Below are positions 6,710 through 38,626 of a DNA stretch of 64,000 bases, piece by piece. Source of the DNA: Kappaphycus alvarezii (Eukaryota; Rhodophyta; Florideophyceae; Gigartinales; Solieriaceae). Location of the stretch: contig NADL03000464.1 of assembly GCA_002205965.3 (NCBI GenBank), forward strand, positions 868,001-932,000, read 5' to 3'. Positions within the stretch are counted from its first letter, which is position 1. Each line of letters opens with the position of its first letter. The position numbers were made by a program, and so were the translations under genes. Under the pieces are notes generated by a model. The model did no database searches. It was not told where the DNA came from and saw only the letters and a list, made by a program, of their open reading frames with translations.

Positions 6710-7491
6710 TTTTTGGGGGGGGGGGAATGGGTTGTTGGGTTTGGCGGATTTGGGGGGAGTGAGTAAGGGGTGTGGGAATGGTCCGCGTGCGGTTTCTGGA
6801 ATGGATCGTCGGAGATTTTATGCGGCGCTTGAGGTGATCTCTGCAACAACAGGAATTCGGCTTTGCCACATGTAACATGTATTTCGTTTAGGTCATATTG
6901 AGCAGAATGTCCTTTTTTGAGGGGCGCTGTGTCGCACGGTTGCTGAATGCACTAGTGCACTAAACCCACTTGGCACTATTTTCCTCCAGGGGCCTGTTGA
7001 AACACCGCGAGCATTGCTGGACACGATGGAACGACAAGTAGTGCTTGTTCACATTTTCATCTCGAAACAATAATCACCCATTTTGAAATTCCCGCACTGC
7101 AGAATCATGGGTGCACCAATGAAGGCTGGACAAGTACACCCATGGGTTCAAAAACGATGGAAACGCAACTCAAAAGCACTGTGGACCTTACCGTTACAAA
7201 GTTTCGTTCAGGATGTCTCTCTCGCTGAAACGCAACCAGCCATACGCCCCGTTTAACCAACCACTCCTCTCCAGCTCGCAAACCCCAACATTTATTGTCC
7301 ATGACCATGATCGAAATGGCAGACCAACCCGGCTTCACCCCTCCGCCGCCTGCCATCCCCCCACCTCGCACGCTCAGCATGTCCTGCTGCACCTCGCCAT
7401 CCCCATCATCCCCTATAATTCCAACTCGGTCCTCCTTCCCATCCCACCCACCCATACACTCCACCCCGCTCCCACCCCCCCACTCCCCACC
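6710..7491. other. Intergenic between lumenal-type gene and Hint gene
   Basis: Contains an 11-base G run (6715-6725) and a very C-rich stretch just before 7492. The Hint frame is open back to an ATG at 7213, but the added 93 residues are Pro/His/Ser-rich and would bury the signal peptide, so I treat this as leader. Confidence 0.5.
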
Positions 7492-8814
7492 ATGCCCCCA
7501 CCACACACACCTCCTCTCTGCCTCCACATCCCCCTCTTCCTACTCCTTCTACTCCTCCCAACAACCCTCTCCGACATGAACCCCCGTCAAATACCAGGCA
7601 CCTACACAAACATCCAACTCATCCCCTCCACAGGTTTCTGCCCCGATCAAATCCGCATTTCCCAAGTCGAGCCCTTACAAACCGCAGACGCCACCCTCTT
7701 CATCATCCCCCATCAATTCATCACCCTCCCCATCCTCCCCGCAGGCCTCACCCCATGCACCGCCACCCCCATCACCCCCGACCAATCCACCCTCTTCAAC
7801 ACCTCCGCCACAGTCCTCTACCGCTCCTCCCAGATCCCCCTCCCCGAAAACTTTGACATCATCGCCCAATTCCGTCTCGCCTCGGAACAATTCTTTCTCG
7901 CCCAGGAAGTCGGCCCCCGTATCTGCGGCCTCAACATCCTCCCTTCCCGCACCGTCTCCATGTGGATGGCCCCGGATCAGCAAATCACAGCCAATATAGG
8001 CAATCAGTCGCTCACCTTTGTCCCCGCCTTCAAGTATATCTTTTACTTTCCGGAATCGCGCCCTTGTTTATACCGTGGCAATGCCGCTCAAGTTGGCACC
8101 GTCGTCGCCATCCCGTCCCGAACCCCGACTCCGTCGCCCTCATTCGTCCCGTCCCCGTCCTCGGTTCCAACGCCTTCTACTTCACAGTTGCCGTCCCAAT
8201 CTCCGGTGCCTAGTGTCCCGTTGCCGCCTTCGTTTTCCTCAATTCCTGTCGTGGCGATTGCGAGCCCGTTGCCGACGGAGGCGCCCGTGTGTTTTGCGGG
8301 AGGCCAGCGGGTGAGGAAAGAGGGCGGGGAGTTGGTTCGCATGGAGCATGTTGAGGTTGGGGACCGTGTTTTGGTTGATGTCGAGGACGGGTGGGAGTAT
8401 TCGCAGGTTTTCGCATGGACGCATAAGGAGGAGGTGGGGGCTGTGTTTGTGAGAATTGAAACAGATAGTGGTAGGGCTGTTGAGGTCACCGTGGGGCATT
8501 ATGTGTGGGTGAATGGCCTGCCGAAACGGGCGGGGCAAGTGCGAGTGGGCGATTGGATGGTCGATGAGATTTGGGGGAGAGTCAATGTGACGTGGGTAGG
8601 GTGCGTTTTTGGCTGGGGGTTGTATAATCCGCAGACTGTCCATGGCAATCTGGTTGTCGAGGGCCTGGTCGTTACGACCTATTCTTCGGTGGTCAAGGAA
8701 ATGGGCGCGGCACATGCCTTGTTGGCTCCCCTGCGATTTTTCGAGCGAGGGTTGGGCGGAATGGTGGCACGCGTGATTGAATGGCTTGGCGTGGAACGGG
8801 GATCAGTCGGGTAA
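7492..8814 (+). CDS. Secreted protein with C-terminal Hedgehog/intein (Hint) domain
   Basis: 440 residues from the ATG at 7492. The start is chosen because it places a signal peptide at the N-terminus: a run of Leu and Ile (residues 9-22) before TTLSD. Residues 29-205 form an unrecognised extracellular domain with four cysteines (50, 89, 145, 192). A Pro/Ser/Thr-rich linker (209-265) leads to the Hint domain, which begins at Cys267 in APVCFAGGQ, continues with VEVGDRVLV (287-295), has a T-x-x-H pair (Thr333, His336 in VTVGHYVWV), RVGDWM (351-356) and ends near GLYNPQTVHGNLVVEGL (376-392). This follows Hog/Hint autoprocessing domains, in which the first Cys makes a thioester and cleaves the chain. 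The Cys of animal Hedgehog used for sterol transfer appears as Thr (VTTYSS), so cleavage may be by hydrolysis or another nucleophile. Such proteins are known outside animals, including algae. The coding strand flips from C-rich to G-rich near 8250. Confidence 0.8.
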   Translation: MPPPHTPPLCLHIPLFLLLLLLPTTLSDMNPRQIPGTYTNIQLIPSTGFCPDQIRISQVEPLQTADATLFIIPHQFITLPILPAGLTPCTATPITPDQSTLFNTSATVLYRSSQIPLPENFDIIAQFRLASEQFFLAQEVGPRICGLNILPSRTVSMWMAPDQQITANIGNQSLTFVPAFKYIFYFPESRPCLYRGNAAQVGTVVAIPSRTPTPSPSFVPSPSSVPTPSTSQLPSQSPVPSVPLPPSFSSIPVVAIASPLPTEAPVCFAGGQRVRKEGGELVRMEHVEVGDRVLVDVEDGWEYSQVFAWTHKEEVGAVFVRIETDSGRAVEVTVGHYVWVNGLPKRAGQVRVGDWMVDEIWGRVNVTWVGCVFGWGLYNPQTVHGNLVVEGLVVTTYSSVVKEMGAAHALLAPLRFFERGLGGMVARVIEWLGVERGSVG

Positions 8815-11800: not shown

Positions 11801-13056
11801 TTGAAGAGATGTCTGGCGAGCGCGTTGCATTAATTGTATTGGTGCGTCATGGCTCGCCAGGGCTACATGTGATCAAGTTGCGGTGATTTGTGAGGAGGAG
11901 GGAGTGAGGTTGGGGGCGAAGATGAGATGTTTGAGGTGGGGAGGTTTGCGTAGGTGAAGGGGAGGGAATCGGAAAGAACATCGTCCATTATGGTGAAGTT
12001 CTGCCGCCTAATAATATATAGGAATGCCTCTGCCTAAGCCCGGAGGTCAAATCAGTTTTCAAAGGTTATCTTTATGAGTACTACAGTCTACTTTAACAGA
12101 CGAGTGTCGGTCCCTGCTCTCAGATGAGTTGAGGCCATGTTCCTCTGTTGTTTGACCAATCGTGAGCAAACCATTTGCTAAGCAATAGTCACGGACGGAG
12201 AGCTTGTGGAGAAAAGGGCTTATAGCCAAGGAAAATAATAGCCTGCGTGGGAGACCAGCTCTTTGACTTCATTGCAGCTCTCCATGGTGGTTCAAGCTGG
12301 AAAATGGATGATCGGGCGAAAATGCGGTTATGGATCAGATCAATGAAACGCGACCGCGAAAGCCCGTGTGCAGTTGGTTGAGTTGCCCTTGATAGGGCGG
12401 AAAATTGTTCAAGCTACTGCTGCAGTCGAAAGATCATCATGTATGCTGTCATTACACGAGGGTCAGTGTTATAACCAATTATGCCGACTGAAACGCCGTT
12501 TGCTGTTTTCTCTGAGAATAAGCACTCTTTGTGTTACATAATTTTACTTCGGCTATGGTTATGTACGAGCAAAGTGCAGGGTCATGAGGACACCACTCGA
12601 TGGGTATTGGGTGGGAAAACCCTGCGTGTTGGTTCGCGGCAAATTATCGCAGCGGCACATGTGGACTAGATTGCGCGGCTTAATTTCTGGTATAGGGAAC
12701 ATTTCACCTCGCAAGGATCGGGAAGGAAGCTTTGAGCTCTGTAGAGACATTTTCGGGACGGGGAATGCTGGAGGAGATTGCCATTGCCGAAGAAGGTTCG
12801 GACTGGCTGGTATTGAGTCAGAAAGAAGTTTAATGCATTCAGTTTCTACTGATGTTGGTGTTACTCGTTTTTACTAATCCAGTATCTGAATTGGAGGCAT
12901 GACCCGTACTGATTACGAGTTGTGGAATTTCTCATTTTGATCCAAGGACTACTCGACACATGGTCCACATGTTACACGTGTAACAAATACTATGAGATCA
13001 TATAAAAACTTGTTTGCGATCCAACTCGGCGACAGAAGCGAGTCTCCGCGTAACGA
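8815..13056. other. 4.2-kb stretch with no supported gene
   Basis: Both strands carry only short overlapping open frames (the longest about 110 codons at 8994-9326) without family motifs or transposon likeness. No tRNA- or rRNA-like structure was seen before 13,057. It could hold regulatory DNA, a non-coding RNA or a decayed gene; nothing visible decides. Confidence 0.5.
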
Positions 13057-13064
13057 GCCGTATT

Positions 13065-13075
13065 TCCGAAACGTC
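13065..13075 (+). other. Putative ectopic tRNA intron between positions 8 and 9
   Basis: Eleven extra bases (TCCGAAACGTC) separate the seven-base acceptor strand from the D stem. The boundaries are set by keeping T at position 8 and A at position 9; shifting left by one is also possible and would give C at position 8. Inference from the fold only. Confidence 0.5.
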
Positions 13076-13104
13076 AGCTCAGTGGTTAGAGCAATGGTCT
13101 TACA

Positions 13105-13123
13105 TGCTACAGCCCTCTGAGCA
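13105..13123 (+). other. Canonical-position tRNA intron (37/38)
   Basis: The 19-base insert folds on itself: TGCT pairs with AGCA and CAG with CTG around a CCCT loop, with one bulged A. Position fits the eukaryotic tRNA splicing endonuclease. Confidence 0.65.
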
Positions 13124-13159
13124 CGCCATGGGTCCCAAGTTCGAACCTTGGATGCGGTA

Positions 13160-13919
13160 TGCGCAGTGTGGAAACTAGTCACTTGAGATCGGTTGCTTGC
13201 TTCACTGTACTGTTACAGTTTTGGGTACGCAATAAGTGTTTTGATAACGACACGGGCCCTCAGTCCTTTTCCCGACTGGATGTGTAGAATTTCTGTGATA
13301 ACGTCACATTGGAAGTGCCTTGCCATTTTGTCCGACTTGTCATAAAAGTTTGCGCGCTTTCTCCAACCTTCCGTGTACTCTACCAAAAGACCGTATTTGT
13401 AAAGAGGCGTTTGGTGCAAATCAAACGCATTTGCAGTTGCACTACGTTTATGGGATTTCATGGAACGGGCAGCTAGTCTTTGTGATTGGTCCCCTACGGA
13501 TCCACATATATTTGTATTCTGGCCACAAACCAACACCTGCCCAAATTTCATCGCTAACTGGTGAGCCCGATGATATCAGCGATTTTGGCTCTGACGGGAA
13601 CATTACCGTAGCTTCCGTGAGCCAGTCGACCACTGCGGATACCTTTTTCTTGCTCAACCTGGAAAGGCAAGTGTGAGGAATCTGTAGGATATCGGCATCA
13701 TGTCCTGCTCTGCACGCTTCGCAGGCGACAATAATCGTTGTTTTTCTTTGCGTTGCCCCGAATTCCAGTAGTGTTACATGAACATCCGAAATACAAGAAC
13801 ATTTTTTAAATGCTACCGACATGCAAAGCATCGCACGAGTCAGGAGTACTTAAAATCTCACCTGCTCTCCGTTCCTTCTCTACCAGCACTTTGCATTTTC
13901 AGCACCTATCCAACCGCCC
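13160..13919. other. Intergenic, conflicting short open frames
   Basis: Three overlapping frames of 112-127 codons (13213-13551 minus, 13320-13676 plus, 13448-13831 minus) contradict each other and none has a recognisable domain. The 5' leader and promoter of kynureninase must lie at the right end. Confidence 0.45.
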
Positions 13920-15278
13920 ATGCCGCTCACTATATCTGCAGCTACCGTTCCCATCCCAGTCTCTGCAGACGCCGACGTCCAGGCCAAATGCGCAACAATT
14001 TCTGATTTCTACGCAGAGGCCGCTGCACAGGATGCTGCAGACCCCTTACGACACTTCCGACGCCGTTTTGCCTACCCAAACAATACGCTCTATTTCTGTG
14101 GCAATTCGCTTGGTCTACAGCCACATGTCGCGCGTCAAGCCATTGAGGCAGAATTGAATCGCTGGGCTACGCTGGCTGTGCATGCCCATTTTTTGGAGCC
14201 GACGCCTTGGGCAGATGCGGAACGAACTGCCGCAGAGGCAGTTGCACCAGTAGTAGGAGCAAAGGGGGATGAGGTGGCACTGATGAATGGATTGACCGTC
14301 AATCTGCATTTGATGATGACGGCTTTTTATAGGCCAAAGGGGAAAAGGGTGAGGATTCTAGTGGAAGATGGGGCGTTTTCGTCGGATGAGTATGCTATTC
14401 AAACCCATGTTGAGGCTCGAGGGATGAAAAAGGAGGAGGTTATTGAGAGAATTGGGTGCCGGCGTGGGGAAGCGTGGGTCAGAGAGGAGGATTTGTTAGA
14501 GAGGATTCGGGAGGGCGGGAGGGAAGGGACATTGGCGATGGTTGTCTTGCCTGGGGTGCAGTATTATACGGGACAGTGTTTTCCTATGCGAGAGATATGC
14601 CGTGTCGGCAAAGAGGTGGGAGTGATTGTTGGATTTGATTTAGCGCATGCAGTGGGGAATGTGGAATTGGAGTTGCATAAATGGGGGTGCGACTGGGCGG
14701 TTTGGTGTAGTTACAAGTATTTGAATGGGGGACCAGGAGCAGTGGCAGGATGTTTTGTGCATGAGAGGTGGGGTCGGGAGGGATTGATGAGGTTGGGGGG
14801 GTGGTGGGGACATGAGAGGGCGAGTCGGTTTCAAATGGGGCGGGAGTTTGTGGCGGAGAAGGGAGCAAGAGGGTTTCAGTTGAGCAACCCACCAATCATG
14901 GGGTTGGTAGGTGTGACGGCGTCGGTAGGGTTGATACGAGAGGCGGGCGGAATGAGAGAGGTACGGAGGAAGAGTGAAAAGCTGACAGGGTTGCTGGAAC
15001 GACTTTTGAGGAAAAGATTGGAAGGGAAGGTGGAGGTGGTGACACCAGCGGAACGGTGGAGACGAGGTGCACAGTTGAGTTTAAGGGTTAAGGGACTAGG
15101 AGGAATAGGGGGGATCGGCAAGTTTAACGAGATATTGGAGGACAGGGGAGTGGTGTGTGACGTTAGAGAGCCGGATGTGTTGAGGGTTGCTCCTGCGCCT
15201 TTGTATAATTCTTTTGAGGAGGTAGTGAAGTTTGTCGAGGTAGTTGAAAACGAGCTCAGGCTGGTTGGCGGGGATTAG
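13920..15278 (+). CDS. KYNU: Kynureninase
   Basis: 452 residues, normal length for the family (EC 3.7.1.3). This PLP enzyme cleaves kynurenine or 3-hydroxykynurenine to (3-hydroxy)anthranilate plus alanine in tryptophan breakdown and de novo NAD synthesis, in the cytosol. Visible: the substrate-site block LYFCGNSLGLQP (57-68), VALMNGLTVNLH (119-130), EDGAFSSDEYAI (149-160), the PLP-pocket Asp240 and His243 in GFDLAHAVGN, and the Schiff-base lysine Lys266 in CSYKYLNGGPGAVAG. GGWWGHERASRFQM and FQLSNPPI, typical of kynureninase rather than other fold-type I enzymes, follow. C-terminal VCDVREPDVLRVAPAPLYN (414-432) is the usual family ending. All key residues are present. The first 300 bases of coding strand are C-rich, the rest strongly G-rich. 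Confidence 0.95.
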   Translation: MPLTISAATVPIPVSADADVQAKCATISDFYAEAAAQDAADPLRHFRRRFAYPNNTLYFCGNSLGLQPHVARQAIEAELNRWATLAVHAHFLEPTPWADAERTAAEAVAPVVGAKGDEVALMNGLTVNLHLMMTAFYRPKGKRVRILVEDGAFSSDEYAIQTHVEARGMKKEEVIERIGCRRGEAWVREEDLLERIREGGREGTLAMVVLPGVQYYTGQCFPMREICRVGKEVGVIVGFDLAHAVGNVELELHKWGCDWAVWCSYKYLNGGPGAVAGCFVHERWGREGLMRLGGWWGHERASRFQMGREFVAEKGARGFQLSNPPIMGLVGVTASVGLIREAGGMREVRRKSEKLTGLLERLLRKRLEGKVEVVTPAERWRRGAQLSLRVKGLGGIGGIGKFNEILEDRGVVCDVREPDVLRVAPAPLYNSFEEVVKFVEVVENELRLVGGD

Positions 15279-25156: not shown

Positions 25157-26191
25157 TTAATCCTGGATGACCGCCTCCCATAAGCTGTACTCAGCAGAAG
25201 TAGCAGAAAATGCTTCCCCCAGAGTCGGCTCATCACTGGTCGTGACTTCGACTGCTTGCAAGGTTGCGGCACCAACCATGTACCTCCACTTCTTCGGTGC
25301 ACGACGTGTGCGTCGCTGATAACGTGACTCATTTTCACAGGTAGTTTGCACATTATGCTCCTCCAGGTGATTGACTTCGTTATCGCCCGCATAATATTCT
25401 TGAACGTCAAGTTCATCGGACAAATTGTTGCTTTCACTTGCAGATTCAACCTGGACTTCTGGCGAATGGCTTGACTGCGGTTCCGTTGCCACATGGTCTT
25501 CATCGACTTCATCTATCGCGAAATCAGAGTACTCGTTCTCGATCTCCGAATCAGTGTTGCAACTGAAATCGCTCTCACTGGCACTCTCATCATCCATGTA
25601 GTTGTCCAGATAGGGTGCACCAGGAGACGAAGATTCGTCGAAGGTCACATGACGTGACTTTAAAATGCGGGGTACGCCGTTATCATCTGTGAACAGAACC
25701 TCGTACACACTATGCCCAAGATTCTGCAAATTCACCCCCTCAAGTGCACGAGACTCGAACCTGGTGTCCGGGTTCATCTTAAATACGTACGCAGCGCAAC
25801 CAAATACTCTCAAGATCCTCAGCGAAGGTGTAGAATCCGTGACTCAGAAGAATGGAGTGAGTGCCGTAGCGGAATGCGGAACCTTGTTACGCACATGTAT
25901 AACGTGCTTTAATGCATACGGCCATATCCATTCTGGCAAGTTGGCCTGTGGCAGCAAAGATAGAGCAGCTTCCTCCATTGTACGGTTAATTCGCTTGGTT
26001 GTGGCATTGTGCTCCGGAGTATACGGAGGTGAGAACGAAGTTACTTGTAGATCATTGGCAGGGTTCTCCTGCAAAGCAATATAGTCTTCCGCATTATCCG
26101 AGTGGACGTTCGCAATCGGTGCTCCTTCAAGCTGCTGGAGCTTCTTTGCCATTGCTTTGAACACATCCGTGAGTTCACTTTGGTGTACCAT
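25157..26191 (-). pseudogene. Element 1 integrase core and integrase-RT linker
   Basis: 25844-26191 holds VHSDNAEDYIALQ (second Asp) and FSPPYTPEHNATTKRINRTM (catalytic Glu) of the DDE core. After a frame break, 25157-25813 begins MRVFGCAAYVF, the usual C-terminal integrase block, then a long Glu/Ser/Asp-rich linker and SLWEAVIQD, the typical lead-in to copia RT. The start of the core, with the first Asp, is near 26,276. Confidence 0.85.
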
Positions 26192-26275
26192 GAACCCAAC
26201 TAATGCATACCTGGAGTGCTCGTCGATGAATGCCGAAGCTTATCGAAAGCGATCGGGAAAGGACGTGAGCAATGG

Positions 26276-26839
26276 CTAAAGAATATCAGAGTGCGCAACG
26301 TCGCCAACATCGGTTTCACGTTTGAACCTGCCTAAGTACAGTAGTTTGTGTGCTTTTCCAAGTCGGTATGGGCGACACACCTTCTCCATTCGAACCAACT
26401 TGGGAACCCCTTCAGCATGCTTGTGCACATCCTGCAAGTCGCGTGCGTTGATATGCGCAAGTCGACGGTGCCAAAGTTGAGCCAATTCATCTTCGCGTGC
26501 AGACATAGCATGCCAATTGCTGCCGTGCATCAACGGATCAGGGAGTGTGTACAAACCTGATCTCCTGTTTCGTTCGCCGCATCCAATAAGGAACCCATCT
26601 TCATGTGTGAGACGGATATCACATGCGCTGAAGAATGAACCAATGCCCTTGTCGGCGGGACGGCCCACAGAAACCAAATTGTACTCAAGATCTGGAACCA
26701 ACAGTGCATCCGCAAGACGCAAGTTGGCAGTCGCAAGCGGAAGTATTATATTACCCTGTTGCGTGGCTGTCACTGTAGTACTGTCTGCCAGTAGTATGGT
26801 TCGGCTAGTCACATCATGCAATGAACTCGGGACAAACAC
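26276..26839 (-). pseudogene. Element 1 protease tail and GAG-pre-integrase domain
   Basis: LLVPDLEYNLVSVGRPADKG is the conserved block after the copia protease; LWHRRLAHINARDLQDVH with a following VCRPYRLGK is the H-x-H-C2 zinc domain before integrase, with the first Cys of the final pair changed. The frame ends at GDVAHSDIL, the region of the first integrase Asp. Confidence 0.82.
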
Positions 26840-27923
26840 AGACTCGGAGCAGAAGAAGTAGATGTTTCCCCGCCGTCAGCATAGGTTTTCATAGCGCCTT
26901 CTGCAGATGGTAGAATGGTGGACTTTTCGATGGAAATTCCAGCGATTTCAATCTTGGATGACTTTTCAGATGACTTTCCGCCAGACCTAGCACTTCCTGC
27001 CTTGTCTTTAGACTTCAAGCTTAGTTTTTCCAGTAGATTTTTCGGCAAGTGGTTGTCCGGGTTGTCTGGATTCACATGAAATCGATCGGAAGTGTGTCCA
27101 TCACGGTCACAGAAGGTACAGTAATACCCGTTGCTATTCACTGCGTATGCACGTCCTGTAAACTCACTGCGGGTGCGATCATCCGATGTATTGCCATCCT
27201 TCTGGTTCAAACTAAAAGCATTGTTCGGCGATTTGGAACTACGAGAGCGATTTGGAATTACCAGAGCCTTTTTGTCTGCCTTTTTACGACTGCGAGTACG
27301 CCCAGAACCACCGGAAGTCATATATATGGCGTTGTACTCATCAATAAGAGTAGTCGCTACGTAATCCGAGGTCAGTTCTGATATCACTTTGGTCCGAAGA
27401 GCGGCTGCAGTGGATTTAAAAGAGCAGTTGGGATCTATACATGCCAGAAGCATAGGTGCCTTATAGGACTCAGGAATGGCAGCGTCCTTGCCCATGCGAT
27501 CCAATTGTGAAAATAAGGCAGCAAACTGATCCACGTAGTCCGACATATTCTGCCCATTGTTGGTCATGCGAAACAGTTGAGCTGAACCGCAATGCGAGAA
27601 ATAGTCCGATTGGAAGCATAAAACGCATCCAAAAGTGTCAACATACGAGCTGGATCATCATCCACATCCATGACCACACTCAACGGAGCATCCTCAAGAG
27701 CACAGATAATGATTGCACATGCCTTTTCACGTTTAGCCAGAAGGCGCGCAACACACTGAGAGCTACTTGGGGAAGCATCTTTAGAGGTTTTAGCCGTAGA
27801 GGAGTGTTCCGTAGTAGATGCTACGACGTTCCAAACACCTTTTATGCGGCACGCAGCTCGAAGGCGGTGACGCCAAAGTGTATAGTCTTCTCCCTGCTTA
27901 CCGTGAAATCGGGGGACCTTCAC
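26809..27923 (-). pseudogene. Element 1 gag
   Basis: Two overlapping frames. The upstream part (27564-27923, from a GTG) has PRFHGKQGEDYTLWRHRLRA, the copia gag opening. The second (26809-27567) has a capsid-like helical stretch and a zinc knuckle YCTFCDRDGHTSDRF, in which the last Cys is replaced by Phe. The frame break at 27,564 inactivates it. Confidence 0.82.
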
Positions 27924-28532
27924 ACCAGAACTGGTATCAGACTCAACTTACGAGTAAGGCATTTTTCAAAACACGAAAAACAGTGACCAGTTACAGTAAT
28001 TTCGCACGTAGAAGAAGAATAAGGTAGACGAAGGAAGCCGGATGACCAAGCCAGTGCTTCTGTGACAAAAGAGAGTAGGGCTGGAGTGGATATGCGAATC
28101 AGCACTCAATAGCGAGGGCGCCAGCCGAGACTCTGTAACAAAGTCTGCAAAGATCGTCTGGAAGCTTCCAGTACGTGATCACAAGGGGGAGTGCAACTCG
28201 ACGCTCGGAGTGTACTCACGGGTGAAGATCGATTCTACCCGGAACCAAAATGGCAAAGTGAGGAACACAATGCCAATTCCAAACAACACAAACAAGAGGG
28301 GTACTGCAAGCGGAGTGTCCACTCACCACTTAGCAGCACGGGGACGCCAGCGGAGACCGGGAGATGGTCTTCAACATTCGTCTGGATGCGTCCCGTACGC
28401 GGTCACTGGGAGAGTCCGGTCTCGTGCTGGGTGGTTACTAACAGACGCGACGCGTTCACCACAGCCGGAGAGAGAAGAACACGGTACTCAATCGCCGCAC
28501 AAAAACAAAACAACTTCGTAGAATCCAAAAGA
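27924..28532 (-). other. Leader of element 1 with internal duplication; expected LTR not recognised
   Basis: Should contain primer site and 5' LTR but shows no likeness to 22940-23660. It carries a diverged direct duplication: 28114-28182 and 28340-28406 share CGCCAGC-GAGAC, CGTCTGGA-GC-TCC and GTACG-G-TCAC in order. The plus strand at 27932-27943 reads TGGTATCAGACT, like a tRNA-iMet primer site but in the wrong orientation. Confidence 0.5.
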
Positions 28533-28537
28533 ATAGT
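28533..28537. repeat. Right copy of target-site duplication ATAGT
   Basis: Lies exactly where the element 2 RT reading (FGGCTI) loses homology. Confidence 0.55.
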
Positions 28538-29584
28538 GCAACCACCGAAACTATAGACCGGGCCGCTCACGATTTTTCCTACGACAAACCTCTTCTGAAG
28601 CTCAGTCAGAAACCGATCTATGTCACCTGGCCTCCCGGCAACTAAGAAGTCGTGTCTTAGTATTGCAAGTAGTGAAATATACCCCTTATCGTCGCGCTTG
28701 ACGAATAGCTGACTTACTCCGAATAATCACACCATCCCGGTTGTGTTGAGAATCCAGTCTTCCACGGCTAACATACATTTCCTACCGGCCTCAACTAAGC
28801 CATATAGCAGATTTGTTAACTTACAGTGTACACCCTTACAATATTTCCGTGACCTCACCAACTCTCTTGGAGGTCTCACGTATACGACCATTTTTATGGG
28901 TCCAATTTGTAGATATGCCTCTTTTATGTCAGCCGTCCTGATTGAAAAGCCAAGGAAAGTTACAATCGAGAGGAGCAGTCGAATAACAAATACCTGAGCG
29001 TTTGACGAATCCTTTCGGATACCATCTTTGTCATCGTCCTCGCTACCGTGTGGTACGATTCGTGCTTTAAGCGTTTGTGTCCATTCTTCATCAGTGTTCA
29101 CGTTGTAGACGACATGTGATGTCATGACGTTTGCATTCCCTGATACCTCCTTTTCGTCCACCTCAACATATGCATATTCCCAATTTGATTTGTGTTCTGA
29201 ATCAAATGCTTCGTAAAATATCCAGGACGGCGCGAATTCAAATTTAGTTCTAGATAACTGCTGTGATCTCAGTTGTTCGAACATTTCGTTTAGACTTTTT
29301 GGTTTTTCTGAGTCAAGAGGCACATAGTTCTGTTTATGACCTTCGACCTCGTCTGCGGACCTATCAATGTCCATGCGTACTTCGTCGCTAATTATGGCAG
29401 CCCCCTCATGCGCCTTATGGTTCTTGTGCATGTCTTCACAAGTCGCCTGACTAACGGTGTCTGGATTAAGGCAACCGTACGGGTCTCCTGGTCCGATTAA
29501 TTCCCCAATGCCTGTGTTGTATTCATGTGGAGCTATCCTGGCCCGGATTTTGAAGTAGGTTGGCGAGTTGATCGGCGGATTCAT
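28538..29584 (-). pseudogene. Element 2 reverse transcriptase
   Basis: The frame 28727-29584 shows NEMFEQLRSQQLSRTKFE, LKARIVPHGSEDDDKDGI and FSIRTADIKEAYLQIGP (first catalytic Asp) and VVYVRPPRELV, a derived copia-like RT. A stop near 28,727 is followed by LFGVSQLFVKRDDKGYI and, in place of the YVDD box, AILRHDFLVAG, so the active site is lost. Reading continues to FGGCTI at the insertion point. Confidence 0.78.
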
Positions 29585-34430: not shown

Positions 34431-35102
34431 TCAAAAGATCGTGTAATAAACATATACAACTATCAGTCCTTGTAATCCATCAGAATTACTTGAGGAAATC
34501 AGAGCTGCGTCACCTAAGGACGGTAAAAGTGCGAGTTTTTCTTCAAGGTGTGCAGCCATTGTGAGATTCAAGAAATCTTCAGCATCCGGTAGATCGTAGA
34601 GGGGCTTGAGAAATTTGAGGATCTTATCATCTGGGAGTCGCAGCTGAGGAGGGGGTCTTAAGTAGACATTTCGGCACAGAGCCTCTGAAGACTGCAGGTG
34701 AGCCTGGCTGACATCGTTGCTCCAAATGCGGAATTTGTGAATCACCGCGAGTGAAGAGATAACTCGGGTCCAACATTGTAGCAAATTCGTGTAGTTATGA
34801 ACCAATAAGTTTTTATCCTTGTCTCGATGCCCTTGTGCGAAGAATCGAGCTTTATGGTCGGGTGCATTTGTTTCGATATGTTTGATGGTAAGGAAGAATC
34901 TACCATTCAAAATGGTAGCGTACTTTTGAATATACGTTTTTGATACAGTTGTCGAGATCTTACAGCCCAGGAGGCCTTGTATTTCTGTACGTATAGGGTA
35001 AAGAAATTGCGGGATATATCTCAGAGGATCTTTAGGATGGAGCGTCTCTGAGAGGTCGGCGGAAAATTGCCTGCGTGATTTATTATTGAAGGGTGTTAAC
35101 AT
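34431..35102 (-). pseudogene. Element A reverse transcriptase, active site lost
   Basis: LNGRFFLTIKHIETN, HKARFFAQGHRDKDKNLLVH, WSNDVSQAHLQSS (first Asp) and NVYLRPPPQL, KFLKPLYDLPDAEDF mark a derived copia RT. The YVDD box at the end reads YVYY (34445-34456), i.e. both aspartates changed to Tyr, followed by a stop. Confidence 0.82.
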
Positions 35103-36174
35103 GGATTATAGCGACTTTGTTACCCGCGGAAAAAAAGTGGTGCAAATTTCTTGAATACGTACGAAGATTAGTCACTGAAAGCTGAGTCTCAATTCCATCC
35201 TTATCGATAAAGGCTTGTATTACTTCAATACGTAGGATTTTGTGAGGTCCAGGCCATTTGACATATTCCTTCTCACAATTCACTAATACTTCTTGACCCG
35301 GTTCGAAGTTCACAGTAGAGCATAAAGGAAGGTTGCCCAGTAGTACCTTTTGAATACGCAGGCGGGAAGCGACAGTTTCTATTTCTACCCTAGCGCAGTA
35401 TAAAGCGCGTATTTGTTCTGTCTGATTGGGGAGGGAGGTGTTGACATAAGGGAAGCGAGTGAGGGTGCCGAAAACAAGCAGGGAGGGGAAAAGACCATCT
35501 GCATTCATGGTATCGTTCATGGATTTGACTGAAAGGGAAACAACGATATGAAGGTCTAGTTGGAATGTTCCAGGGAGACGTTTGAGGTAGATTCTGCGCA
35601 ACGGGTCGTGTTGTTTTTCGCCAGCTCTAAGACAGTCATAGCTTTCAACACCTGAGAGATCAATTTGTATACCTGCCATTGAAGCAATATCTTGGAAGCG
35701 ATTCGAAGTGAAGACAGAGCCTTGATCGGTGCGAATGGTGTCCGGGTAACCGGTATAAATTGTGGCCCAAAATTGAAGAAAGGTGTACCAAATTTCTTCA
35801 ATCGATTCGCCTCGTAGGAAGCGGGCTGCCGAAAAATTTGTACCGAGGTCTACGACGTGGAGGACCGGCTTGGGAGTGTTTTTGGTATGGAGAAACATGC
35901 AGCCCAGAGATATCTTTGAATTAAAGACTTTTTTGTCTGGAGACGAAACTTTGAATGATTGGGGTCGAGGTGAAAAATGTTGACAAGTTCGATGTGAATC
36001 CGTGATTTGTTGTAGGAGTTGTTTTTTCAGGGATTCCCTTGTTGGGGTGTGCTCTAGCGATGAAGTTATAAACTTTTTGGGTGGAGTGGTGAAAGAAGTG
36101 GTAATAGAGACTACGCAACTAACGATGGCAGAAAACGTCGGAGGCGTAACACAAATCCAGGTACAAATGTCCAT
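35083..36174 (-). pseudogene. Element A integrase, long intact frame
   Basis: 363 codons. CQHFSPRPQSFKVSSPDKKV is the region after the zinc domain; HVVDLGTNFSAARFL has the first core Asp, IRTDQGSVFTSNRFQ the second, and GVESYDCLRAGEKQHDPLRR the Glu. A C-terminal PGQEVLVNCEKEYVKWPGPH is the SH3-like part. It overlaps the RT frame by 20 bases in another frame. It is the best-kept open frame among these elements. The N-terminal first 50 residues seem out of family frame. Confidence 0.82.
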
Positions 36175-36201
36175 GCTTTCGAGTAAGGGACAGTGACCAA
36201 T

Positions 36202-36990
36202 TTAATTCTTTCTTAAGAGGAGATTTTCGAAGTTATCGGCGACAAGTTTTTCCCTTTCCAGGACGCCGACACCTGGTAACATAGGTACACCAAGAGTGAC
36301 GACATCTGTACTGATTTCTATGAAGGAACAATCAGGGCAGGGTATGCGAACTGGAAGAGTACCCATAGCAACAAAGTTTGCATCAACGAAGCTAAAGGCG
36401 GTATTTGACTGGTTCGGAGTCATCTTGCGTCCAGTCATTTTGCTGTATGCAGCTGCTTATTTTTGTCCCATAACTGACTTTTGGGCACCAAGACCAATAC
36501 AGGCACCATTAAAGCGAGAAAGGGACGAGGGTGTGAAATCTAAAATTTTGGTATGGAGGACATTGGCAACACTACAGGGGGTATCTGTGTAAATACGGCG
36601 TAGGTAGGGGGAAGAAGGGATATGTCTGCAGCCTTTTTGTAGATCCCAGATAAACAATCCGTGGAATTTTCTTTAGTGTCATCAAAGGGCATAGAAATGG
36701 GAGACTAGTCATGAATGATTTGGTCTGAGGAGAGGGGGTCCAATGAATGTCCAGCGTTGGAATCCTCGAAAAGGTTTTTCCCTGGGATTTCAAATAGGCG
36801 GGTGTCATAAGCGCTATATGGATGGGAACTATCGTCAAGTTCTGAAAAATTGTCGGTAGTTTCAAAAAGCACTCCTTTCAAGACTTGAGTTTCTTGCCTC
36901 GGGTATTTCTTGAAATTAAAACGAAAATGAATTTCTGTATTTTTTTTGATATTCTTGGGATGGGGGCATTTGTTAAGAAAATGATTTTCC
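36202..36990 (-). pseudogene. Element A protease region
   Basis: 36202-36438 reads VDANFVAMGTLPVRIPCPD, then FIEISTDVVTLGVPMLPGV, resembling the flap-to-end part of red-algal copia proteases before integrase. The rest to 36,990 is broken into short frames. Confidence 0.5.
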
Positions 36991-38626
36991 TCAGTTCAAG
37001 AAATGCAGAGGGGTGAGAGTGAGGGGTTCAATTCGGGGTGACACGGATGCCGTCGGGATGGATTTTTTGGGAATAGGGCTGTTGAAGATGGGAACGAGAG
37101 TACATGGGCTGCCCAGAAGCAAAGTACGTGCATGCTGATGCAATAGGTCTAGAACTTCAATTTCATGTAATTGAAGATTCTTCCTCTGTTTGGATTGCAC
37201 TGTGCAGTTTCGAGAGTAGGTCTTGGTACGGTATCTCATAGTTTGTTGACTGCGTGAGGACATGATTTGATCAAGAGAATCCTGTGACTGCGTTGCAGAG
37301 AAATTCATTTTTGTTTCTACACCTTCCTTATGAAGGGGGATACGCGGTTCGCACTTGATAATAATTGAATTAATTTTGTCTAGAGCTGCCAAAAACAAAG
37401 ACGAGGAAGTGGGATGCTCTTCATTGTGCAAGTTACGAAGGTATCGGTAGAACTGATTTTGACATGAGATCGGATTAAAGTGCTTGTCGATCATGGCAAT
37501 GGCTGTGCCGAAATCAGTGAAACGGCTCTCAATATATTTTTTGATAATAACGTGGAATAATAAATGGAGAAATTGCATTCTTTGTTCTTGCGACAAAAGG
37601 AAATCTCGAGCGGCGTATTGGTACTCAGTGACGAAGGAATATAGGTTTTCCGTGCCGGAGTATTTACTATCGGCCCATTTGAAACGCTGTGACATATTTC
37701 TGGCCAAGTTTTGAATATCATGGTTGTTTCCATGGGACGGGGAGGGAGATGGAGAAAGAGGGGTTAATGGAACCGATTCAGTTGACAATATCACCTTGAT
37801 ATGTTTGATACATGCATCAAGTTCTGGGCCATGGAAAAGAGCAGAAGCTGTATTCTCAAAAAATGTTATGTAAGGTTCTAGAAATTTTAACATTATGAGT
37901 TTGAAGAAATGATTTAAATTTTCTGTAAACAAGGGGATTTGAGATTATTTTTCGTTCGATGAGGGATTCAGGTTTCAAATCCTCGCGGAAGACGTCACAC
38001 AGATCGTTTCCCACGAGAGTTTCGTCAGACGCGTAGCCACGGATTGTGTTGAGGAAATCGCGCTGGTTATCGTTTGCGAGGGTCACTTCTGAGCAAAAGA
38101 AATTTTGTTGACTGTTTGCTTGATTGGGTACAGGAAGGTGGAGGGGTGGCGGCGGAATGACATGAGGAACAAAGAAAACAGGATGAATAGGTAAAGGAAA
38201 AGGGGGTGCAGAAAAGAAATTAATTTGTTGCACAGGGGCATTTTGTCCGTAAGGAGGGGTTTGTAAGGGAACATTTTGAGGGAAAGCAGAGTGTGGGGAT
38301 GAGTGAATTTGTCGATTTCCCTGGGGTAAACCTTGAATTTGCGGTATATTATTGGGTCTCGTACCCTTTGAAGTGTCTTCACCAGATGAGGGGTCATTCA
38401 GGTCGCCGGTTGCAGAAAGTGGAAGGTTCTCCGATGAGACCATGTTCGACGGCCCAGCGAAAGGTGAATGTATAGCAGGGTTACTTCCCTGAGGTGGCTG
38501 CAAATTATCCACCCTTCCGTCGGTCGAAGATGAGGGCATGTGACGCTGCGACGGATTAGATATGCGAAAAGCCGTGCGTCTAGTGATTGTCCTTGCGATG
38601 CCCTCTTTCGTCATACAGCTGGGCAT
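36991..38626 (-). pseudogene. Element A gag
   Basis: Two overlapping frames. 37856-38626 starts at ATG and is Pro/Ser/Asn-rich, ending with IRGYASDETLVGNDLCDVFR. 36991-37932 continues with ALFHGPELDACIKHIKVILS, KYSGTENLYSFVTEYQYAAR and QNQFYRYLRNLHNEEHPT. The frameshift is at about 37,890. The same blocks recur, decayed, at 53,040-54,990 on the plus strand, which supports a gag family rather than a host gene. Confidence 0.75.

Follow-up and report, generated by a model that had tools for sequence, protein, structure and literature searches.

A red algal tRNA-Val(UAC) gene interrupted between positions 8 and 9 and at 37/38: probable splicing of an ectopic intron beside a canonical one

The window, the whole 64,000-nucleotide stretch of DNA analysed here, belongs to a genome of 336,021,096 bases in 884 contigs (G000). 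It contains at positions 13057-13159 of the forward strand, to which all coordinates of this gene refer, a tRNA-Val(UAC) gene with two inserts of 11 and 19 nt. Insert 1 (13065-13075; TCCGAAACGTC) lies exactly between tRNA positions 8 and 9, and insert 2 (13105-13123) occupies the canonical intron position 37/38. Exon 1 (13057-13064) comprises the 5' strand of the acceptor stem (positions 1-7) and U8, exon 2 (13076-13104) contains A9, the D arm, the 5' strand of the anticodon stem, the anticodon TAC (13101-13103), and A37, and exon 3 (13124-13159) is built of C38, the 3' strand of the anticodon stem, the variable loop, the T arm, the 3' strand of the acceptor stem, and the discriminator A. The joined exons form a 73-nt cloverleaf with the anticodon TAC and all four stems, comprising an acceptor stem with 7/7 pairs (2 of them G-T), a D stem GCTC/GAGC, an anticodon stem ATGGT/GCCAT, and a T stem CCAAG/CTTGG. 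Removal of an insert outside 37/38 restores a standard tRNA here, which is one mark of an ectopic intron. With insert 1 retained, the bases then adjoining the D arm (13067-13073) form 0/7 pairs. The first-pass annotation had placed the inserts at about 13065-13075 and at 13105-13123, which is correct to the base, and its claim that the acceptor stem forms only without insert 1 agrees with these pair counts; its "7-9 site" stands as an ectopic insert, with the location narrowed precisely to 8/9.

A TATA-like box (TATAAAAA; 13001-13008) begins 56 nt 5' of the gene, and the first downstream run of four T residues, a possible Pol III terminator, is located at 13219-13222, 59 nt past the gene. The exons stand in the normal order, which rules out a permuted tRNA gene at this locus. 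ARAGORN reports zero tRNA genes in the window, and the Rfam tRNA model matches 13076-13151 only, with 33.2 bits against a gathering score of 29; both the partial match and the empty ARAGORN result are expected if an insert sets the acceptor apart from the D arm. The tRNA gene is adjoined by a kynureninase open reading frame (13920-15278, forward strand), the start of which also aligns in the further copy of this locus that contig C619 carries (see below). Elsewhere in the window, a predicted protein with a Hint (hedgehog/intein) module is encoded at 7213-8814 on the forward strand (PF01079, 65.4 bits), and the open reading frames at 25157-29584 and 34431-38626 on the reverse strand resemble retrotransposon proteins by eye. 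A phycobilisome-family (allophycocyanin-like) protein is found on large, apparently nuclear contigs of the genome (C74:183737-184090, L174; C669), which fits a red alga; the size of the genome in turn suggests a multicellular one.

The same genome contains two intact, intronless tRNA-Val(UAC) genes on contig C739. The joined exons of the window gene are identical to these genes at 72/73 positions, with only position 44 differing (G in the window and A on C739), and the 11-nt insert is missing from both. Comparison with these near-identical intact genes assigns insert 1 to site 8/9 and insert 2 to site 37/38; for insert 1 of the window copy, any other placement would change the product. A one-base shift of insert 1 leaves the product of the C619 copy unchanged, and both placements were tested there for a bulge-helix-bulge (BHB) motif. 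A DNA search of the genome with the gene gives four matches, namely the gene itself, the C619 copy, and the two C739 genes; this search is not exhaustive, as a degenerate pair of relatives (L093/L101) surfaced only through a pattern. An origin from a SINE or another tRNA-derived repeat is dismissed on these four matches, from the same nonexhaustive search, instead of many dispersed copies, and a chance cloverleaf is dismissed on the presence of the intact twin gene. With two intact Val(UAC) genes on C739 as possible sources of this tRNA, the window gene may be dispensable. The first-pass annotation had held that an intact gene elsewhere, together with only unspliced or no transcript, would mark a pseudogene; the intact genes are indeed present on C739, and the window gene is still judged functional.

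The copy of the locus on C619 retains both inserts and is identical at 1,666/1,797 aligned bases around the gene (93%). When the window is compared with 60 kb of C619, collinear blocks of 88-96% identity add up to ~32 of its 64 kb and are interrupted at ~18.5-32.4 kb. The C619 copy probably represents a homoeologue or the second haplotype. It also has TATAAA at -53 (pairwise alignment) and a T-run 50 nt past the gene. Its 8/9 intron has the sequence ACTGAAACGAC, and the length of insert 1 is 11 bases in both copies. Between the two copies the exons show 0/73 substitutions (0/8, 0/29, and 0/36 in exons 1, 2, and 3), compared to 3/11 in insert 1 and 1/19 in insert 2. The nearest flanks diverge by 21-38%, with 9/43 substitutions in the leader (13011-13056) and 23/61 in the trailer (13160-13220). 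Further segments show 11/50 (12961-13010), 8/60 (13221-13280), and 2/58 (12901-12960), and the wider background reaches about 5-7% (37/500, 17/299, 8/119, 13/199, and 16/315), with 15/981 in the first 981 bases of the kynureninase open reading frame. A spike of divergence at 12801-12900 (34/99) stems from misalignment across a large indel. Fisher tests separate the exons from insert 1 (p=0.0017), from both inserts (p=0.006), and from leader plus trailer (p=7.5e-9), and the probability of unchanged exons at the leader-plus-trailer rate is ~2e-12. The exons of a pseudogene would diverge like its flanks, which those of the window gene do not. A peak of divergence around a constant tRNA is a known outcome of strong transcription combined with selection (transcription-associated mutagenesis at tRNA genes).

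A genome-wide search with a D-arm pattern gives 69 matches, compared to 14 in the reversed control, and 63 distinct contexts were read. All 8 matches with AGCTCAGTCGGCAGAGC are elongator tRNA-Met(CAT) genes (L089, L092, L095, L100, L104, L108, L109, and L114) that carry, besides a 37/38 intron, another insert in the T loop, of 14 nt in 6 genes and 10 nt in 2. These inserts are read as 59/60 introns (T loop TTCAAGC). The H helix of the BHB motif, formed with TTCA, shows 4/4 pairs in 6/8 genes with varying pairing partners (TGGG, TGAG, and TGGA), and the remaining helices show 3/4 (L092) and 2/4 (L089) pairs. The chance of a full 4-bp H helix is 0.016 per insert. The 37/38 introns of these genes fit the motif less well, with 2 or 3 of 4 H pairs and the first h pair open. 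Since the eight genes probably stem from four loci, each present twice, they are not independent, and a Met gene with a different D arm would escape the pattern. All 8 elongator-Met genes found carry the 59/60 intron, which indicates that the genome handles ectopic tRNA introns.

Gene pairs within this genome allow a comparison with the window and C619 copies. The intact Val(UAC) pair on C739 shows 0/73 substitutions in the gene and 18/60 and 15/58 in the 60 bases on either side. The four elongator-Met pairs, paired by likeness and contig, show 1/288 substitutions in exons and 26/109 in introns (p=5e-15). A degenerate tRNA-Val relative with a broken T stem is present as L093 (C460:1212610-1212920; C460:1212808) and L101 (C619:816560-816870; C619:816756). 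It carries an 11-base insert, TTCGAAACTTC, which is the only other 8/9 insert seen in a tRNA. L093 and L101 differ at 4/77 positions upstream, 3/103 within, and 4/129 downstream, that is, with no contrast between gene and flanks. From the comparison of these pairs, the window gene behaves as intact genes do and not as this pseudogene pair.

Among the tRNAs seen, which exclude, among others, nuclear initiator Met as well as Tyr, Ser, and Leu, ectopic introns are restricted to few isotypes. The Ile(AAU), Thr(CGU), Val(AAC), Val(CAC), Asn, Phe, Lys, and most Thr(AGU) genes are ordinary, and no 8/9 insert is present among the fetched genes of these isotypes or of Arg, Trp, Cys, and Pro. One tRNA-Thr(AGU) gene (L086; C813:743650-743950) has a ~12-base intron at 37/38 and the other full-length copies read have none, showing that the presence of an intron varies within this gene family. 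Tandem tRNA-Thr(AGU) genes with a period of ~5.7 kb are found on C388 and C802 (L040, L041, and L061-L064). ARAGORN identifies 74 gene contexts without an encoded CCA on the fetched loci (<9 kb), a count that gives no frequency estimate, as disrupted genes are unfoldable by this program. tRNA genes with an encoded CCA lie on C556, C562, C581, and other contigs, which are probably bacterial contigs in the assembly.

Further patterns yielded candidates of varying quality. For initiator Met, of which no gene was recognised, GGCGCAGTGGAAGCG gives 776 matches, compared to 584 in the reversed control, which are mostly chance, and the four fetched among the matches listed are not tRNA-like by eye. 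GGGCYCATAACCC gives 91 matches compared to 3 in the control; two were fetched, one of which is called tRNA-Met by ARAGORN. From the 318 matches of AGGTCNNNNGTTCRANYC, 20 were fetched among the matches listed, and the 44 of AGCTCAGTNGGTTAGAGC added 18 fetched loci to others already covered. A B-box/A-box pattern gives 261 matches, with tRNA-like repeats dominating among the matches listed. The tRNA-like repeats with A and B boxes comprise a dispersed SINE-like family (L128, L129, L140, and L141), preceded by an A+T-rich, TATA-like stretch, and an array of tandem units with a period of ~236 bases at C23:713076-719042. Exact tRNA stretches have 0 matches in the collections genome_contigs and viral_contigs, which include no other red algal genome.

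The two introns of the window gene differ in their fit to splice-site motifs. In an ordinary 37/38 intron, position 32 pairs with the third-last base of the intron, leaving a 3-nt 3' bulge. Intron 2 agrees with this rule, as C13099-G13121 closes the H helix CTTA/TGAG (4/4 pairs). Its motif consists of the anticodon stem (h, 5/5 pairs), the bulge CA-C, this helix, and the bulge CA-T (hyphens mark the cuts), with a weak inner helix. Around intron 1, a possible relaxed BHB spans 13055-13080. Its h helix GAGC (13055-13058)/GCTC (13077-13080) forms 4/4 pairs with two bases from the 5' leader, its H helix CGTA (13059-13062)/AACG (13070-13073) forms 3/4 pairs, and no inner helix h' is present. The bulges TT-T and TC-A place the cuts at the exact borders 13064/13065 and 13075/13076, and the same pairs are formed in the C619 copy. 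A random insert reaches 3/4 H pairs with a probability of 0.14, which leaves the fit weak when taken by itself. In its minimum-energy fold, the precursor adopts a structure other than the cloverleaf or the 8/9 BHB; there, GCTCAG of the D stem pairs with CTGAGC of intron 2. Pair probabilities of the 8/9 BHB are ≤0.08 in the full precursor, and with the 5' part folded alone they are ≤0.10 for the window copy and ≤0.37 for the C619 copy. Because of the partial fit and a folding that disfavours the 8/9 pairs, the mode of 8/9 cleavage is the least certain step of the proposed splicing.

The predicted proteins of this genome include the cognate splicing endonuclease, with homologues of Sen2 and Sen34 and a candidate for Sen15. 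The Pfam family PF01974 has six listed matches, five above the cut-off and one below. The PF01974 proteins from C697 and C33 have Sen34 and Sen2 as their best PDB matches, and the letters around Tyr, His, and Lys, read by eye, presumably represent the catalytic motif. The Sen15-like candidate (C530:874026-874334; L148) scores 35.4 bits in Pfam against a cut-off of 22, and its weak PDB matches include no Sen15. The text covered of PMC3978253 describes no apparent Sen15 homologue for Cyanidioschyzon merolae.

Taken together, the window gene is probably functional, as a nuclear tRNA-Val(UAC) gene that carries two introns and still yields a working tRNA, a reading drawn from sequence comparison. 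The proposed pathway starts with transcription by Pol III, probably aided by the upstream TATA box. A tRNA-splicing endonuclease of the Sen2/Sen34 type would excise the 19-nt intron at 37/38, and the same enzyme would cut out the 11-nt intron at the possible relaxed BHB formed by acceptor and leader bases with a strand of the D stem. The exons would then be ligated to the 73-nt tRNA, possibly in this order of steps. Established parts of this proposal are the two-insert anatomy, the intact counterpart, the constant exons beside a changing intron 1, the other ectopic introns, and the genes for the catalytic subunits. Points against the functional reading are the intact Val(UAC) genes, the partial 8/9 motif with its low pair probabilities, the lack of 8/9 inserts in the other tRNAs seen apart from the degenerate relative, and the 59-nt distance to the possible terminator. 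The view of the first-pass annotation that the 8/9 insert is an ectopic intron gains support from the constancy of the exons between copies while insert 1 changes, from the different behaviour of the pseudogene pair, and from the 59/60 introns of elongator Met, 6/8 with a full BHB.

The gene could instead be a redundant tRNA-Val(UAC) copy disrupted by a chance insertion of 11 bases, with the tRNA supplied by the intact, intronless genes on C739. In a set of many synonymous eukaryotic tRNA genes, a copy with a short insertion is usually taken in this way (PMC4090602, text covered), the relative that shares a similar 8/9 insert has clearly decayed, and the BHB at 8/9 is weak. Such a pseudogene is nevertheless unlikely given unchanged exons between strongly diverged flanks, a contrast which the degenerate pair lacks, the constant length of insert 1, and the tolerance of ectopic introns in elongator Met. 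The conserved exons and the weak 8/9 motif would also suit an expressed and selected RNA that keeps the insert, either as a tRNA whose acceptor/D junction is enlarged or as a tRNA-derived noncoding RNA. This is very improbable, as the rate of change in insert 1 is close to that of the flanks (3/11, a small number), which indicates that its sequence is not what is kept, and an intact counterpart without the insert exists. In the tRNA core, U8 pairs with A14, and an 11-nt insertion would disturb this pair.

A further alternative accepts the 8/9 intron and concerns its recognition: the endonuclease or another nuclease could read the folded cloverleaf or a longer leader structure, without a BHB. 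The 3/4 fit and the missing inner helix speak for such a route, which has a low but appreciable probability. It is opposed by bulges that set the cuts exactly at the exon borders, by the same pairs in the C619 copy, and by the fit of most elongator-Met T-loop introns to the BHB. For the window gene, splicing of both introns by the Sen2/Sen34-type enzyme is the preferred reading.

The limit of one intron next to the anticodon that is commonly assumed for eukaryotic tRNA genes is ascribed to an endonuclease that measures from the tRNA body. Such a limit to one intron is stated in PMC8450103, where the search for noncanonical introns is described, in the text covered, solely for the archaeal model, from which we infer that eukaryotic genes of the present kind would be missed. 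Ectopic and multiple tRNA introns are known from C. merolae (PMC3978253, PMC4090602, PMC4033280, PMC9602550), which a table in PMC4033280 gives as the eukaryotic case of multiple tRNA introns. Ectopic introns also occur in the Guillardia theta nucleomorph, where the elongator tRNA-Met gene is one of those holding three (PMC4090602, PMC3978253), and a permuted gene of a green alga shows an odd intron at 27/28 (table in PMC3978253). In the sources covered, the main prior exceptions to the one-intron rule are thus a hot-spring unicell, relict algal nuclei, and a permuted green algal gene. An 8/9 intron is not mentioned in the text covered of PMC3978253, PMC4090602, PMC4033280, and PMC9602550, the figures of which may depict one, and in the portions of the literature searched, no multicellular red alga is reported to have ectopic tRNA introns. 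New here are the 8/9 site and the large, probably macroalgal genome; ectopic tRNA introns as such are already known.

One genome shows two unrelated cases, the 8/9 intron of Val(UAC) and the 59/60 introns of eight elongator-Met genes, the latter encoding a presumably indispensable tRNA. This points to ectopic tRNA introns as an old feature of red algae that is under-annotated. The chances are about even that multi-intron tRNA genes with ectopic BHB introns are general to red algae, including seaweeds with large genomes, and that an endonuclease with all of Sen2, Sen34, and a Sen15 can excise even 8/9 introns. If this is true, a tiny genome, an extreme habitat, and the loss of Sen15 all fail to explain ectopic introns, and eukaryotic tRNA genes of this kind systematically escape annotation that permits one intron, at 37/38. 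Through the two cases found, the recognition of ectopic sites becomes testable outside the special genomes named above.

C. merolae, one of the closest known systems, shares with the present genome, as far as its description is covered, red algal nuclear genes with more than one intron per tRNA gene, sites outside 37/38 including the T arm, BHB or relaxed BHB motifs (a partial candidate at 8/9 here), an upstream TATA box, and homologues of Sen2 and Sen34. The present genome differs in the 8/9 site, unnamed in the C. merolae text covered, in its size of 336 Mb with many ordinary tRNA genes compared to 16.5 Mb, in the Sen15 candidate compared to no apparent homologue, and in that no permuted gene is seen, in a search that was not systematic. 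The Guillardia theta nucleomorph is of red algal ancestry. It resembles the present case in short introns (3-24 nt there) at noncanonical positions and in an affected elongator tRNA-Met, and their excision was confirmed there by RT-PCR (PMC4090602, PMC3978253). In contrast, the nucleomorph is a reduced endosymbiont genome in which many introns lack a defined BHB, compared to a fit in 6/8 elongator-Met genes here. Crenarchaeota such as the Thermoproteales likewise have tRNA genes with more than one BHB intron, in many different positions; they possess archaeal-type endonucleases, and the positions listed for them in the text covered (3/4, 20/21, 22/23, 25/26, "etc.") are given without 8/9 (PMC4090602). 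Compared with the ordinary eukaryotic 37/38 intron, intron 2 is alike in position, anticodon-intron helix, and 3-nt bulges, whereas intron 1 sits elsewhere in the tRNA.
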